Position numbers and translations under genes: made by a program
NCBI GenBank assembly: GCA_947500585.1
Contig: CANMSN010000016.1
Coordinates: 1-64,000, forward strand
Direction of reading: 5' to 3'
DNA from: an uncultured Flavobacteriaceae bacterium
GTDB lineage: Bacteria; Bacteroidota; Bacteroidia; Flavobacteriales; Flavobacteriaceae
Length of the DNA: 64,000 bases
The notes under the pieces: model-generated
Database searches by the model: none
Seen by the model: only the letters and a program-made list of their open reading frames with translations
What the model was told of the DNA's origin: nothing
Shown here: piece after piece, positions 1,432 to 60,677 of the stretch
Layout of the letters: each line of letters opens with the position of its first letter
How positions within the stretch are numbered: position 1 is the first letter of the stretch

Positions 1432-4400
1432 ATGAAAAAAATTACTTGTATAAACTTTGTATTTATTGTTCTGTTTTTACTATTGGGGATTAAAGGAACA
1501 TCTCAAACTTTTGAAACCTTTGCAATTAGGAAAAATATTGAGGTTAATGGAAGTATGCTTGTTATTGGCAACAATATTCTTGGTAAAGATAATTTACCAT
1601 CCAATGATGATTCAATAAACAACCAAGATATATCTATGCAATATATAGATATTGATGGTGATAATTCTACTTTTAGTTCTAGTAGTGCGGAACTTATTAT
1701 GCCAACTCAACCAGATGGTAGTGCTACAACATGTTACAGGATGATATATGCTGGATTATATTGGGGAGCTGTTTTACAAAGTGGAAGTAGGGCAGATATC
1801 AATAAAGTAAAATTAAAACTGCCAAGAAGTGTGACTTATGAGGATATTAATGGTGAAATCATTTATGATGCTATTGCTAGTCCAATTCCAGCAGAAAGTG
1901 GTGAGCCTGAAAATACGCCTTATGCTTGTTATGCAGATGTAACCAATTTATTATCAGGGTTATCAAACGACATAGCAGGCGATTATACTCTAGCTAATGT
2001 TACTTCAAGTGAAGGGTTTAATGGTTCAACAGGATTAAGTGCAGGCTGGACGCTTGTCGTGATTTTTGAAAACCCTAATCTTAACATGAAATCTTTTACT
2101 ACGTTTGATGGGTTTAGTCATATTTACGATAGCCATACAGAAGATATACCTATTACAGGGTTTACAACGCCTCAGGCAGGATCTATAAACTTGCAATATG
2201 CTTATGCCGCCTTGGATGGCGATAAAACGAAAAGAGCTACTAAATTTGAACTTAATGGTAAAGAAATAAATTCACCTCTTAGACCAGCCAATAAATTTTT
2301 TGGTTCAGTAATAGAAAATACTAATGGTGTTTCTAATCCTAGAAATCCTTCCGGAACAAATACCCTGGGATACGACACGGGTTTTTTAGAAGTTAAAAAT
2401 GCAGAGCCAGAGTACATAAAGAATAATGATTCTTCTGCAGACCTTACATTGCAAGTTGCTAAAGGGCAAGCAGACCCCATATTTCTATTTTTTAGCGCTT
2501 TTGCTGTAGATATTATAGCACCAGACATTAATCTTACCAAAATTGTAGTTGATGCTGCAGGTGATGATATTGATGGACAAGATGTAGTTTTAGGTCAAAA
2601 TTTATTTTATGAAATTATATATCAAAGTGTTGGTAGCGATAATGTTACTCAATTTACTTTAAAAGATGTGCTTCCAGATAATGTTGTTTTTGATCCCTCA
2701 ACAGGTATAGATTTAAGTAACGCTGGTGGTGCAACATTACAATCTTATGATGCTGCCACCCGAACACTAATATTTGATATTCCAGATGGATCTGTAGAAA
2801 TCAATGATCCTCAATTTGTTATACGTCTAGCTGTAGAAGTAGTTCCAAATTGTTACGATTTAAGTCAGGCATGTTCTAATGAAATTACAAACCAAGCTTT
2901 TGCTACTTATAGTGGTATTATTAATACCAATGAAATTGTAGAAGAAGGTAGTTTTGCATCAGTAGAGTGTTTAACGACACCTGCGCCTACTAATTTTTTG
3001 GTAGATATATCAAATTGTATATTCGAGAGAGATGAAGTATTATGCGGATCTAGTGTTGTTTTAACAGCTTCTGATGGTTACGATAGTTACTCATGGTCTA
3101 CAAGTTCATCAGGAACACCCGTTATCAGTACAGATCAAACTTATACAGCAACAGAAACTGGAACATATTATGTAAGAAATACAACGTCATCAACATGTGT
3201 GTCTATTAATGAAACCATTAATGTAATACCTTACGGAAACACAATTGTAAATCCAATAATTCCTTTTGCAGATATATTGCCAATTTGTCCAAATGATGGT
3301 AAAGTTTTACCAAATATATTTTTATGTGGCGCCAATGATACAAGAGAAATTAATACGGGAATTAGCGATGCGGTCTCAATTATATGGGAAAAATTAGATG
3401 AAACTAGTTGTGCTGATGTAACAATTGACGACTGTGCCAATGAAAACTCAGCTTGTACATGGAATCAAGTAGCTACTGGACCTAATTATGCAGCAAATAC
3501 TTCTGGCCAATTTAGAATTGTAATAAATTATCCTGGTGGTTGTTTTAGTATTTTTTACTTTGATGTTTTTCAAAACTTATTAAACCCTACTGCTACTTCT
3601 ACTGATTTTCTTTGTGATACACTTGGTTCAATAACCGTAGGCGGCGTACCAACTGGTTACGAATATAGTATTGATGGTACAAACTATCAGTTAAGTAATA
3701 ATTTTTTAGTACCTCCAGCTGGGTATTATACAATTTATATCAGACAAATAGATGTAGATACAAACCCTTGTATTTTTGAAATACCTGATATTTATATAAG
3801 GAATAGAGATTTTAGTGTTACTAGTACTATTACGCAACCAAATTGTAATGGCTATAAAGGAAGTATAAAATTAGCAGTAAACGATGCGCTTCCACAATAT
3901 TATTACAGTATTTATGAAGGTGCCACATTAGTTAATAGTGTTGGTCCTATAATAGGAAGTGACTATACGTTTGATAACTTAAATGATGGAACTTATACTG
4001 TAAATGTTAGTACAGATGATGGTTGTGTATTTACTGAAGATATTGTTATAACAGAACCTGCAGTTTTAACTGCTACTTCTGCTCTAACAACACCATTAAC
4101 TTGTGAAGAAGGTGAAATTACTATTTATCCAGTAGGAGGGACACCACCTTATTTGTATTACATAAATAGTACAACAGATTTTCAAAATACAGCTTTAGTT
4201 TCTGTACCAACTTCTAGCATATTTAATATTACAGTAGTAGATTCTAATAATTGTAGTGCTCAAACATCAATTACTGTAGATGAAATTCCTGCGCCAGTTT
4301 TTAATATGACTAAAACAGATGTTTTATGTTATGGTAACAATTCAGGAGAAATACAATTTGATGTTAGCAATGCCAATGGCTATGTTGTTGAATATAGTAT

Positions 4401-57228: not shown

Positions 57229-57624
57229 ATGCGTTTAATAATATTTGCAATACTATTGGTTACTTTTAGTTGTAAAGAAAGCCCAAAGGAATTATACACA
57301 TGGCAATCTATGGAAGTAACAGCTACAGCCTATAATTCATTAGCGTATCAAACAAGTTCTGAGCCTAATATTACTGCATTTGGAGATAGTTTACAGCCAG
57401 GAAAAAAATATATTGCAGTGTCAAGAGATTTATTAAAACTGGGTTTAAAACATAATATCCCTGTCAAAATTGAAGGTCTTGAAGGGATATATTTGGTTAA
57501 GGATAAAATGCATTCGCGATGGCGTAAAAAAATCGATATTTACATGGGCGAAGATGTTAAAGCCGCCAAATTGTGGGGCAAAAAAACAGTGTGTATCGAT
57601 TATGGAATTCCAATAAGCGAATAG
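57229..57624 (+). CDS. 3D-domain lipoprotein (murein-active type)
   Basis: 131 residues. MRLIIFAILLVTFSC is a lipoprotein signal. The rest is a single 3D domain (double-psi beta-barrel): EVTATAYNSLAYQTS, ITAFGDSLQPGKKYIAVSRD, and the defining end IDIYMGEDVKAAKLWGKKTV, whose Asp residues give the family its name. Related domains occur in lytic transglycosylases (MltA) and spore cell-wall proteins, so a cell-wall role is likely, but activity is not proven. Its stop is 1 bp from the exbD stop. Confidence 0.85.
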   Translation: MRLIIFAILLVTFSCKESPKELYTWQSMEVTATAYNSLAYQTSSEPNITAFGDSLQPGKKYIAVSRDLLKLGLKHNIPVKIEGLEGIYLVKDKMHSRWRKKIDIYMGEDVKAAKLWGKKTVCIDYGIPISE

Positions 57625-57625
57625 T

Positions 57626-58183
57626 TTATTTCGTTTCAGCTTCCGATAATACAAACGGATAAGCGTCTTTTACTTGCTGCAATTGGTCTGTTGATAAATC
57701 TTCGGGTAATTTATTAAATACTTGTTTTGCATAATCTTTTCGTAAATCGAAATAAGCTTTAGTTAATTCATCTTGCACTTGAATGAATTGATTATAAGAC
57801 GTATTTCTATCATTTTGTAATGAAATTACAGCTTTTTTTGGGTTATCTGATAATTCTGAAGATTTAAAACCGCTACAATAACTACAACTACCATCTAGGT
57901 TATTATCTAAAAACTGTTTGGCTATATCTTTTAATTCAGCAATATTAATAATATCATCCTCAACCATGATTTCATCATTTGCATTGATTGAAATTCTTAA
58001 AAGATTATGCTCTTTTATTTTGCTATCACAGTCTATTCCTTGCGGACATTCTGCTGGTAATTTTCTAGTAATTCCTTTGTCTTTAGGAATTGCAGCGGTA
58101 ATTAAAAAGAAAATAAGTAATAGAAATGCTATGTCTGCCATAGAACCAGCATTTACTTCAGGCATTAATTTTGAACGTCTCAT
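57626..58183 (-). CDS. ExbD/TolR family protein
   Basis: 185 residues. Short cytoplasmic N-terminus (MRRSKLMPEVNAGSMAD), then one membrane helix, IAFLLLIFFLITAAI; the Asp of MADIAFLLL is the proton-path residue conserved in ExbD/TolR/MotB proteins. The periplasmic part contains a CSYCSG pair of cysteines and a longer C-terminal extension (YFDLRKDYAKQVFNKLP). ExbD works with ExbB to energise outer-membrane import or envelope machines, but no exbB gene adjoins it here. Three very small genes lie immediately upstream on the same strand. Confidence 0.9.
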   Translation of the reverse strand: MRRSKLMPEVNAGSMADIAFLLLIFFLITAAIPKDKGITRKLPAECPQGIDCDSKIKEHNLLRISINANDEIMVEDDIINIAELKDIAKQFLDNNLDGSCSYCSGFKSSELSDNPKKAVISLQNDRNTSYNQFIQVQDELTKAYFDLRKDYAKQVFNKLPEDLSTDQLQQVKDAYPFVLSEAETK

Positions 58184-58250
58184 AATTATAGTTTTATATG
58201 TTAATATGACGTTTAAGTCACAAAAACAATACCAAAAAAGAGACTTCTAA

Positions 58251-58385
58251 TTAATGAAAATAACGCTTTGTACCTTTCCAAACAGTGGTGTCTGAAGTAT
58301 TAATATTTAAGACGCATCTGCAATTAAGCAAATTTTCTTGTGTAATATTATTTAAGTGTTTAGATATTTTATTGAATGTTTTCAT
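58251..58385 (-). CDS. Small gene 3 upstream of exbD, 44 residues
   Basis: ATG to TAA on the minus strand, 67 bp upstream of exbD. It begins MKTFNKISKHLNNITQEN and contains a CRC motif in the middle; it ends VWKGTKRYFH. No signal peptide or membrane segment. The Trp/Lys-Arg/Tyr ending resembles those of the two 28-residue products encoded just upstream, but the rest is unrelated, so common ancestry is uncertain. No known family. Confidence 0.45.
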   Translation of the reverse strand: MKTFNKISKHLNNITQENLLNCRCVLNINTSDTTVWKGTKRYFH

Positions 58386-58396
58386 TTTTGATTTGA

Positions 58397-58434
58397 TTTT
58401 GATACTGAAACAGGTTCAGCACAGGTTGATGAAA
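58397..58434. repeat. REP-like 38-bp repeat, copy 1
   Basis: Identical to 58555-58592. It contains CTGAA-ACAGG-TTCAG, a small hairpin typical of palindromic elements in Flavobacteriaceae. It separates small genes 2 and 3. Confidence 0.85.
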
Positions 58435-58444
58435 GATTTTGGAT

Positions 58445-58472
58445 TAAAAAGACGTTATTAATTATAACGTCT
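58445..58472 (-). terminator. Intrinsic terminator overlapping the end of small gene 2
   Basis: On the minus strand AGACGTTAT, 5-base loop, ATAACGTCT, then a run of five T. The stem spans the last codons and the stop. The equivalent place in small gene 1 has no complete stem. Confidence 0.6.
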
Positions 58473-58544
58473 CTTTGAATTCCATTGATTACTTTTAGTA
58501 GTACTTAAAGTCCCTGATAATTGATTGTTGTTTAAAGTTCTCAT
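58458..58544 (-). CDS. Small gene 2, 28-residue product, paralogue of small gene 1
   Basis: ATG to TAA. The product reads MRTLNNNQLSGTL (1-13), then a Ser/Thr-rich link, TKSNQWNS and KRRYN. 23 of 28 positions match small gene 1, located 157 bp upstream in the same orientation. Between the two, five codons differ silently (Ser10, Gly11, Asn19, Asn22, Lys24) and five change the residue, always among small polar or basic types, which favours a real coding frame. An intrinsic terminator stem overlaps the last codons and stop. Family and function unknown. Confidence 0.5.
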   Translation of the reverse strand: MRTLNNNQLSGTLSTTKSNQWNSKRRYN

Positions 58545-58554
58545 GATTGTTGTT

Positions 58555-58592
58555 TTTTGATACTGAAACAGGTTCAGCACAGGTTGATGAAA
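58555..58592. repeat. REP-like 38-bp repeat, copy 2
   Basis: Identical to 58397-58434 (offset 158 bp); separates small genes 1 and 2. With the small genes it makes a 157-158-bp tandem unit. Confidence 0.85.
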
Positions 58593-58614
58593 ATAGTTTT
58601 TAAAAAGGTGGCTA

Positions 58615-58701
58615 TTATCTATAACGTCTTTTTGTGTTCCATTGGTTACTTTTAGTTTGTGTTAAAGTACCCGATAATTGATTGTTGCTTAAAGTTCTCA
58701 T
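58615..58701 (-). CDS. Small gene 1, 28-residue product, first of the tandem pair
   Basis: ATG to TAA. Product: MRTLSNNQLSGTL (1-13), TQTKSNQWNTKRRYR (14-28). No signal peptide, no Cys, basic and polar, with a single Trp. It lies about 38 nt downstream of the predicted transcription start. The leader CAACAAT before ATGAGAAC is shared with small gene 2. It could be a bacteriocin-like or modified peptide precursor, a regulatory leader peptide or a small protein partner; nothing in the sequence decides, and I see no modifying enzyme nearby. Confidence 0.5.
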   Translation of the reverse strand: MRTLSNNQLSGTLTQTKSNQWNTKRRYR

Positions 58702-58745
58702 AATTGTTGTTTTTTGATTGTTATACTAGATAGACGACAGGAATT

Positions 58746-58775
58746 CAAAATTGTTACAGTACTATGCATAACAAA
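58746..58775 (-). promoter_or_regulatory. Predicted promoter of the small-gene cluster
   Basis: On the minus strand TTTG (58772-58775), 18 bases, CAATTTTG (58746-58753), one base off TAnnTTTG. Transcription would start near 58739, leaving a 38-nt leader. Confidence 0.45.
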
Positions 58776-58911
58776 GTAATAAATTAACATGTTTTAACTG
58801 TTTTAATACGAAATAGGGGAGTTAAACTATGTAATCACTATTATATTCTTCGACTAAATAGTTTTAGGAATGGTTTTTGTATTAATTAAATCCTAAATAT
58901 TAAGGACTTAG

Positions 58912-58942
58912 TTGATGTTTTCAACATAAAAAAATATCTTTG
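58912..58942 (+). promoter_or_regulatory. Promoter of the secreted-protein gene
   Basis: TTG (58912-58914), 20 bases, TATCTTTG (58935-58942). The start codon is 34 bp downstream. Confidence 0.7.
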
Positions 58943-58976
58943 AGCCATTATTGTAATAATAGATCACAAAAAACAG

Positions 58977-59660
58977 ATGAAACTTTATTTTTCATTTTTT
59001 ATTATAATGCTTTTTTCATTATCAGCTTTTTCACAAATTGATAATCAGAAACGATCTATAAGTATTCCTGCTGTTGAAAGTAAAAAAGATTCTGCAGATA
59101 CCAGAAAACTATTACTGTCAAAGCCTATAAACAGTAATAATAACAGTGTTAATCCACTAAATGCTCCAAAAGTATCTACCAATTTAAATTTACCTAAGAA
59201 GGAGTTTTCTATGTTTCCTCAAGAAAAATTTGGAAACCCTGGAGAACTTTATGTAAAGCAGGTTAACAAAAACATAGCAGATTTAAAACTTTCACCAGAG
59301 GAAGTTGAGCAACGAAATGGGAGTCAAACAGATCAGTTTTTAGGTGATTTTAAAAGTGGTGCTAAATTTGTAAATATAGTTTACAGAGATCATGGTTTTA
59401 CTGATGGCGACGTTATTCAAGTTTTAGTGAATGATGATATAATTCATGCGCGAGTTTTTCTAACTGGAGGATACAAAGGGTTTAAATTAGACTTACAACC
59501 TGGATTTAACAAAATTGATTTTTTAGCCTTAAACCAAGGGAGTTCTGGACCTAATACAGCAGAATTTCAGGTGGTTGATGATGCTGGAAATCTAGTGTCG
59601 CACAACCAATGGAACCTTGCTACAGGGGTTAAAGCCACTATTGTTATTGTTAAGGAATGA
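58977..59660 (+). CDS. Secreted protein of unknown function
   Basis: 227 residues. Signal peptide MKLYFSFFIIMLFSLSAFS before QIDNQK. A disordered Asn/Ser/Lys-rich segment (about 20-85) leads to a beta-rich domain with NIVYRDHGFTDGDVIQVLVN, HARVFLTGGYKGFKLDLQPG, NKIDFLALNQGSSGPNTAEF and a C-terminal KATIVIV. The spacing of GDVIQVLVND and INKIDFLALNQG suggests a compact beta-sandwich. Similar secreted proteins occur in Bacteroidota, but no function is known to me. No T9SS sorting domain. Its stop is 3 bp from that of the convergent aldo-keto reductase gene. Confidence 0.75.
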   Translation: MKLYFSFFIIMLFSLSAFSQIDNQKRSISIPAVESKKDSADTRKLLLSKPINSNNNSVNPLNAPKVSTNLNLPKKEFSMFPQEKFGNPGELYVKQVNKNIADLKLSPEEVEQRNGSQTDQFLGDFKSGAKFVNIVYRDHGFTDGDVIQVLVNDDIIHARVFLTGGYKGFKLDLQPGFNKIDFLALNQGSSGPNTAEFQVVDDAGNLVSHNQWNLATGVKATIVIVKE

Positions 59661-59663
59661 TTT

Positions 59664-60677
59664 TTAGGATATAACTTTTTCTATAAATTTTAACTCATCA
59701 TTAGTAAACTCTAAATTATCTAAAGCCTTTACATTTTCTTTTAACTGATTGGTAGAACTTGCTCCAATAAGCACAGAAGCTACTTGTGGTTGTCTTAAAA
59801 TCCAAGCAATTGCCATTTGAGATAATTTTTGACCACGCCTTTCAGCAATTTTAGCTAACTCTTGAATTTTTTCAATATTATTATTTACCGTTTCTGTATT
59901 TAAAAAAACAGAATCTCCACCTGCACGAGAATTTTTAGGAATACCATTTAGGTACTTGTCGGTAAGCATACCTTGGGCTAAAGGCGAAAATGTAATACAA
60001 CCTACACCGTTTTGTTCTAAAGTATCTAAAAGTCCATCTTCAACCCAACGGTCAAACATAGAATATCTAGCTTGGTGTAATATAAAAGGCGTTTTTAATT
60101 CTCGTAATAATTCGGCAGCTTTTTTGGTGTCTTCTGGCTGATAGTTAGAAATACCAACATAAAGTGCTTTTCCCTGTATAACAATATCTGCTAAAGCTCC
60201 CATGGTTTCTTCTAGTGGTGTATCGGGGTCTGGTCTATGATGATAAAATACATCTACATAATCCAAATTCATACGCTTCAAACTTTGGTCTAAACTTGAT
60301 ATTAAATATTTTCTAGACCCTAAATTTCCATAAGGACCATCCCACATATCAAAACCAGCTTTTGTAGCAATGAACAACTCATCTCTGTATGATTTGAAAT
60401 CGGAATTTAAAATGGTACCAAAATTTTCTTCAGCTGATCCAGACGGTGGCCCATAATTATTAGCTAAATCAAAGTGTGTAATACCTAAATCGAAAGCACA
60501 TCTTAAAACATCTCTAGCGTTTTTAATATCATCTACATGACCAAAATTATGCCATAAACCTAATGAAATTGCAGGTAAAAGGACGCCGCTTTTTCCAGAC
60601 CTTTTGTAAGTCATTGTTTTATAGCGTTCTGATGAAGCATCGTATTTTATAGGTTGAGTATTGTTGTCAATTTGCAT
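59664..60677 (-). CDS. Aldo-keto reductase (YghZ-like, L-glyceraldehyde 3-phosphate reductase type)
   Basis: 337 residues. The first 20 residues (ending SERYKTMTYKRSGKSG) line up with the E. coli YghZ N-terminus, so the start at 60677 is supported. Motifs: LPAISLGLWHNFGHVDDI, THFDLANNYGPPSGSAEENF with the catalytic Asp and Tyr, FIATKAGFDMWDGPYGNLGS with the catalytic Lys, YVDVFYHHRPDPDTPLEETM and VASVLIGASSTNQLKEN for NADPH. It reduces aldehydes in the cytoplasm; YghZ acts on L-glyceraldehyde 3-phosphate and detoxifies methylglyoxal in E. coli. Confidence 0.93.
   Translation of the reverse strand: MQIDNNTQPIKYDASSERYKTMTYKRSGKSGVLLPAISLGLWHNFGHVDDIKNARDVLRCAFDLGITHFDLANNYGPPSGSAEENFGTILNSDFKSYRDELFIATKAGFDMWDGPYGNLGSRKYLISSLDQSLKRMNLDYVDVFYHHRPDPDTPLEETMGALADIVIQGKALYVGISNYQPEDTKKAAELLRELKTPFILHQARYSMFDRWVEDGLLDTLEQNGVGCITFSPLAQGMLTDKYLNGIPKNSRAGGDSVFLNTETVNNNIEKIQELAKIAERRGQKLSQMAIAWILRQPQVASVLIGASSTNQLKENVKALDNLEFTNDELKFIEKVIS

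Follow-up and report, generated by a model that had tools for sequence, protein, structure and literature searches.

Small proteins that are induced by stress under alternative sigma factors are short, conserved and mostly unannotated, and many of them are membrane peptides. Those controlled by ECF sigma factors are a known kind, and genes of 28 codons usually fall under annotation limits. In the Bacteroidota, the EcfO/Reo system of Bacteroides and Phocaeicola has been described as an envelope-stress ECF sigma factor with a small regulon (PMC9308784, PMC13114119). In F. psychrophilum, promoters of the SM6 type carry a CGT box in the -10 region, and among them are those of an ECF sigma/anti-sigma pair and of a rhodanese-related protein; T9SS and Band-7 genes appear in the published SM6 table, whereas a peptide array does not, and a conserved structured RNA, Rfp11, is among these ECF-type promoters (PMC9723704). 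Leader peptides offer a further comparison, given that one of them, peTrpL, is described as able to act in trans (PMC7298713).

The locus reported here, a tandem array of very small genes, has features of each of these systems. Its peptides resemble the stress-induced small proteins in being short, conserved and tied to a stress-type sigma factor, but unlike many of them they are hydrophilic and cationic, occur in tandem and end in a fixed C-terminal tail. As in the SM6 regulon, compared here by its description only, the promoter box also precedes a rhodanese gene and a sigma gene, whereas the SM6 table has no counterpart of the array. The likeness to EcfO/Reo lies in an ECF sigma factor of the Bacteroidota with a small regulon. 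The anti-sigma factor of that system is described as large and reaching the outer membrane, in contrast to the putative one here, which has 146 aa in one genome, and the published EcfO/Reo descriptions (PMC9308784, PMC13114119) do not support identifying our sigma factor as EcfO. As in attenuator leaders and peTrpL, as far as described, the end of a small open reading frame (ORF) overlaps a terminator-like hairpin; unlike them, the array has several equal copies, a hairpin almost only at the last of these and no constant downstream gene.

The window is the whole stretch of 64,000 nucleotides that was analysed. An earlier note, made from the letters of this stretch, had placed three short minus-strand frames between a promoter and exbD. 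The three frames are confirmed, and a promoter does lie upstream of them, although the site has to be corrected to an ECF-type box at 58731-58758. The features of the locus are as follows.

58731-58758, minus strand: ECF-sigma promoter, TGTAAC-N16-CGTCTA, ahead of the peptide array
58615-58701, minus strand: first copy of the 28-aa peptide (MRTLSNNQLSGTLTQTKSNQWNTKRRYR), from its ORF, the family profile and dN/dS
58458-58544, minus strand: second copy of the 28-aa peptide (MRTLNNNQLSGTLSTTKSNQWNSKRRYN), the final 28-mer of the array, with an ATG start
58446-58476, minus strand: terminator-like hairpin, an inverted repeat with 12 of 13 pairs
58397-58434, with a second copy at 58555-58592, minus strand: 38-bp spacer with the dispersed element TGCTGAACCTGTTTCAG, from a repeat search
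58251-58385, minus strand: 44-aa peptide (MKTFNKISKHLNNITQENLLNCRCVLNINTSDTTVWKGTKRYFH) of a second family, from its ORF and the collection of 43/44-mers
58219-58234, minus strand: sigma-54-like box TGGTATTGTTTTTGTG before exbD, outside the peptide unit and conserved in relatives
57626-58183, minus strand: exbD, 185 aa (Pfam ExbD, E = 7.9e-20), adjacent to the array without being its dedicated partner

The promoter box starts 57 nt before the ATG of copy 1, and copy 2 has a longer GTG frame besides its ATG start. A recount confirms that the two 28-mers are identical at 23 of 28 residues, and the tandem unit, given earlier as 158 bp, measures 157-158 bp, with 84% identity over one repeat of 116 nt and 100% over another of 38 nt. 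Five silent codons and five replacements, counted by eye, also stand, but the replacements are not all conservative as had been claimed (Q/T and R/N are not). The codons for KRRY in copy 2 form the 5' arm of the hairpin, the stop codon lies in and beside its loop and a T-run closes the 3' arm. The earlier note also recorded a shared spacer. Its identity is no evidence for the peptides, because the spacer holds a dispersed element: TGCTGAACYTGTTTCAG, which lies inside the identical 38-bp spacers, has 17 copies in the genome, against none for a reversed control. The element is REP-like and sits at 58397-58434 and 58555-58592.

Both the 28- and the 44-aa frames have the look of translated genes, with purifying selection acting on the protein. 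Over 80 independent pairs of 28-mers, dN/dS (Nei-Gojobori) is 0.15 in frame, compared with 2.3 and 1.0 in the other two frames, and change at synonymous sites is free (pS 0.32); 13 pairs of 44-mers give 0.19. The earlier view of the frames as translated sequence is supported, given that codons vary while residues stay fixed. By part of the 28-mer, dN/dS is 0.17 at the N-terminus, 0.24 in the middle and 0.05 at the C-terminus, the last value being biased downward because the C-terminal motif served as a collection filter. Constraint does not depend on position in the array: inner copies (0.19, 35 pairs), last copies with a hairpin (0.19, 23 pairs, at a stem threshold of 7) and last copies without one (0.22, 30 pairs) have overlapping bootstrap ranges. 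That inner and last copies are about equally constrained argues that selection sees the peptide itself, and similar constraint with or without a hairpin points to action in trans. Among 152 units, A is frequent in the start context at -3 (95%), -6 (74%), -12 (95%) and -13 (86%); in F. johnsoniae, A at those upstream positions is reported to promote initiation (PMC6847099).

The 28-mer family is widespread in the bacterial family of this genome, the Flavobacteriaceae to judge from the named relatives. A single 28-mer of the window used as query gave matches in 31 of 99 genomes at E <= 10, and a profile of 34 rows gave matches in 140 of 397 genomes of this bacterial family at E <= 0.01. In 126 of the 397 the best E was below 1e-4, a count that omits 14 of the 140 genomes whose best E exceeds this value. 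The earlier note had named a lack of homologues in related genomes as refuting; homologues are present in these 126 genomes, with open frames. Among 295 genomes sampled class-wide, at least eight of them further members of the same family, this genome alone had a match at E <= 1e-4. A scan of named genomes gave 288 related stretches, of which the best 80 were taken as named loci (L095-L174), covering Algibacter, Lacinutrix, Flaviramulus, Flavivirga, Winogradskyella, Aquimarina and others; conservation within them is partly by construction, because an N-terminal pattern and a selection for high identity were used. The loci carry one, two, three or four tandem copies of the 28-mer (38, 34, 7 and 1 loci, respectively). 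Dispersal within a genome also occurs: one (G005; L011, L053, L188 and others) has about ten copies over several loci, at least three of which have their own ECF box.

The ends of the 28-mer are fixed, with MRTL at the N-terminus and W-N-x-[KR]-R-R-[YF]-R ahead of the stop. In 168 distinct units, W21, N22, K24, R25 and R26 are invariant and the codons vary for all but Trp; to enter this set, a unit had to have W21 and K24, with R or K accepted at 25 and 26 and any of YFHWLIV at 27, whereas N22 was not part of the filter. When the first ORFs behind the promoter that start with M[RK][TS] are taken instead (n = 79), 70 keep W..K[RK][RK][YFHWLI] and the other nine have WNxRRR[YF]R, that is, a change from Lys to Arg. 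Versions of 19-20, 28 and 43-44 aa have similar ends and a variable middle. Short versions of 19 aa with similar ends were seen in L026 (1510-1569) and L049; no ECF box was seen in L026, the weak match of which may be a real 19-aa member. The 44-mer tail, W-x-G-x-K-R-Y-A-H, resembles that of the 28-mer, in line with the earlier claim that the third frame of the window shares the end pattern, here a related W..KR[YF] motif. A possible likeness of WKGTKRY to the tail of a ribosomal protein was considered and set aside. The predicted structure of the 44-mer, a single helix with a mean pLDDT of 71.7 and a pTM of 0.33, is uninformative.

The 28-mers are hydrophilic (n = 152), with a median net charge of +6 and no hydrophobic stretch. 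No membrane-spanning segment of the type I toxin kind was found in the same 152 sequences, in which the best 15-aa hydropathy window is at most -0.07, or in 48 43/44-mers, in which it is at most 0.61. The first 28-mer and the 44-mer of the window have no Pfam match at E <= 10, and one member of each peptide family has no NCBIfam match at E <= 1, in agreement with the earlier remark that no family was known for these peptides. Our literature search found no publication that bears their motif strings or treats them. The 28-mer family and its arrayed layout appear to be new, and a family found in about one-third of the sampled genomes of its own bacterial family has apparently stayed unnamed because 28-codon genes escape annotation.

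The array has its promoter in common with a sigma gene. A scan of 620 kb of named loci on both strands for [TCG]GTAAC-N14-16-CGTC found 81 sites, 79 of which stand 57-109 nt before an ORF of the family, in 78 of the 80 named loci and always with an N16 spacer. One of the two remaining loci, L169, has no box because the locus starts 66 nt before the ORF. The other, L104, has no ECF box in its full sequence and carries TGGCAC...TTGCT upstream instead, which we take, from the sigma-54 consensus, to be a sigma-54 promoter. This locus (3724-3866) is a three-copy array, and its sequence suggests a swap of the ECF type of promoter for a sigma-54-like type. Over 12 genomes, TGTAACA-N14-16-CGTCT occurs 65 times, compared with 12 for a reversed control. 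In the genome of the window TGTAAC-N16-CGTC occurs ten times (two in the reversed control), and eight of these sites lie 54-159 nt ahead of a gene: the peptide array itself, the sigma gene, DUF456-, DUF4870-, Pmp3- and ankyrin-like genes, and genes for an 84-aa and a 286-aa protein, the names being given by likeness to Pfam-scanned proteins of relatives. Of the other two sites, one falls within an ORF and one stands 348 nt away from the first ORF listed. In relatives the box precedes genes for an ECF sigma factor with a putative anti-sigma factor, ankyrin, DUF456, Pmp3, DUF4870 and rhodanese proteins and a protein of 84-85 aa; the other sites inspected there look like chance. The putative anti-sigma factor, encoded after the sigma gene, has no anti-sigma match in Pfam and was judged by its position only. 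The 84-85-aa proteins (MEL[VL]L..., with a hydrophobic C-terminus; L247, L038, L039, L048 and L193) form a family of their own, the ORF in L247 standing 56 nt after the box and the one member scanned having no Pfam match.

A relative of the sigma factor (E <= 1e-20) was found in 51 of 60 genomes of the same family, in single copy in all but one. Within 200 nt of the sigma gene, TGTAAC-N15-17-CGTC is present in 29 of 30 loci (the best 30 of 61 matches), including this genome, a count for which shuffles predict 0.02. The sole failure, L217, has a wrong offset, and the locus is apparently cut by a contig end. All 22 strongly array-positive genomes have a sigma relative, as against 29 of the 38 others (n = 60, p = 0.02), a co-occurrence that is confounded by phylogeny, with seven of the nine sigma-less genomes being of 2.6 Mb or less. 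No array match was found in these nine even at E <= 10. From such a box the ECF sigma factor seems to drive its own gene, and a conserved sigma factor of the stress type appears to switch on the peptide family.

As an overall explanation we propose a stress-inducible micropeptide array under an ECF sigma factor, acting in trans via its C-terminal tail, which we regard as fairly probable. The sigma factor would drive one transcript with one to four copies of the 28-aa cationic peptide, followed at roughly every second named locus by the 43/44-aa relative. Between the two there often stands a terminator-like hairpin built in part from the KRRY codons of the final 28-mer. From that position, the hairpin would keep the level of the 44-mer below that of the 28-mer, leaving the latter in excess. 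The peptides would be free cytosolic products acting in trans, with copy number setting the dose. Since the ends are kept while the middle varies, the tail (W-N-x-K-R-R-[YF]-R, or its 44-mer counterpart) is the likely contact and would be the working end. When the envelope is under stress it would most likely dock on a partner with negative charge, to judge from the charge and the regulon; candidates are RNA, the ribosome, the polymerase and the inner-membrane surface, with the ribosome/RNA or the RNA-polymerase surface as our leading guess. A bolder version would make the peptides a new class of stress effector, in which, under envelope stress, near-identical micropeptides from the arrays fill the cytosol and attach by the WNxKRRYR tail to the machinery of translation or transcription, copies scale the dose and the hairpin within the codons of the tail fixes the ratio of 28-mer to 44-mer; this is conceivable, but we hold it to be doubtful. 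The sigma factor, the promoter rule and the short tail motif are at hand, so that deletion, tagging and pull-down are straightforward, and work on the array would give access to how a major family of marine bacteria responds to envelope stress.

The hairpin also speaks for an alternative already raised in the earlier note, that the peptides are leaders acting in cis, the position of the ribosome on the last 28-mer deciding whether the hairpin terminates transcription before the 44-mer and the genes downstream. A stem with the KRRY codons as its 5' arm (score >= 9, in a set that includes the window) is found in 22 of 33 last copies that precede a 43/44-mer, compared with eight of 40 other last copies, one of 46 inner copies and two of 119 shuffles. 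A hairpin in every copy was considered and rejected on these counts, the structure being mainly confined to the last copy. In 37 distinct hairpins, a set picked by stem length, third-position changes mostly preserve pairing (at codon 26, T-A in 21, T-G in 10 and C-G in 5), which speaks for the leader reading. However, inner copies and last copies without a hairpin are about as constrained as those with one, no more than 39 of the 80 named loci yielded a 43/44-mer (48 distinct sequences were collected in all), and tandem identical copies are hard to reconcile with control in cis. Across the 80 named loci there is no constant downstream gene, as an attenuator would have. A leader role is therefore disfavoured for the 28-mers, and we consider this reading unlikely. 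One part of it weighs against a purely trans-acting array: where the hairpin precedes a 44-mer, the last 28-mer could also regulate the 44-mer in cis.

Some RiPP-like precursors are likewise short, with conserved ends and multiple copies, and the array could be read in the same way, the C-terminal W-N-x-K forming a core that is modified by an enzyme encoded elsewhere and then exported. The short length, the conserved N-terminus, the conserved aromatic and basic C-terminus and the copy number fit. An initial view that there was no exporter nearby was overturned: an OEP efflux gene lies about 1-2.7 kb upstream of the array in nine of the 80 loci (L122, L126, L130, L133, L140, L143, L147, L161 and L165), preceded by a gene for an HlyD-family protein in eight, and a 2OG-Fe(II) oxygenase gene is present in 34. 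The nine loci form one group, however, and the exporter pair is parted from the array by one or more opposite-strand genes. In the genome of L140 an ABC-transporter-like and a regulator-like protein, named by eye, precede the OEP and HlyD genes, but the ABC-like protein has, again by eye, no extra N-terminal stretch of peptidase size. Enzymes of the radical SAM, YcaO or ATP-grasp type were absent from the 22 recurrent neighbour clusters; of the proteins beyond these clusters, all but three, which were scanned, were judged from the start of the sequence. In many RiPPs the pattern of conservation is the reverse of that seen here, where the C-terminus is best conserved and the middle variable. 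We think it improbable that the peptides are precursors of this kind.

Sigma-ECF-dependent sRNAs are well known, and the frames could be incidental to such an RNA. The presence of the structured RNA Rfp11 among the SM6 promoters of F. psychrophilum, as described, would favour this (PMC9723704). Against it stand the contrast in dN/dS between the coding frame and the other two, the free change at synonymous sites and the absence of an Rfam match at E <= 1 in 57600-59700 of the window; an RNA with incidental frames is very unlikely.

The array is independent of exbD. The earlier note had suggested that the peptides might be small partners of the neighbouring ExbD motor, and exbD is indeed downstream on the same strand in 39 of the 80 named loci, in 37 of them as the next long gene. 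But in 11 it is found upstream or at another place, and 30 of the fetched loci, some few of them truncated by contig ends, do not contain it; in Winogradskyella-type loci it stands before the array with an opposite-strand gene between, and dispersed arrays occur with no exbD seen. The array and exbD also each have their own upstream box. A conserved box like TGGTATTGTTTTTGTG, presumably a sigma-54 promoter by its consensus, is found in 28 of the 80 loci and stands 31-36 nt before the exbD start in 16. ExbD as the dedicated partner can thus be dropped, and we give a partnership with its motor hardly any chance. A role of the array as leader of exbD was likewise rejected, on the grounds of the variable synteny and by the gene's own upstream box. 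That the frames are functionless by-products of a repeat, as the dispersed element in the spacer might suggest, is next to impossible in view of the conservation in 126 of 397 genomes, the open frames, the strong purifying selection and the conserved promoter.

The commonest neighbour of the array is a divergent gene for 227 aa (58977-59660, plus strand, in the window), a relative of which is present in 73 of the 80 fetched loci with variable adjacency and which has neither a Pfam nor an NCBIfam match. The 22 recurrent neighbour clusters, four of them scanned via the copies of the window and one via that of another genome, gave Pfam matches for all but three, and the families include dehydrogenase E1, ExbD, 3D domain, aldo/keto reductase, 2OG-Fe(II) oxygenase and helicase proteins, S9 and M19 peptidases, HSP20, cold-shock and sulfatase proteins, and others. 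A family of 113-aa proteins, possibly exported to judge from the start of the sequence, lies inside or right after some arrays (L097, L139, L149 and L152); the one member scanned had no Pfam match. In L122, a protein with a Pfam match to PycTM (Pycsar effector) is encoded at 1804-2361 on the minus strand, between the exporter and a cold-shock gene.
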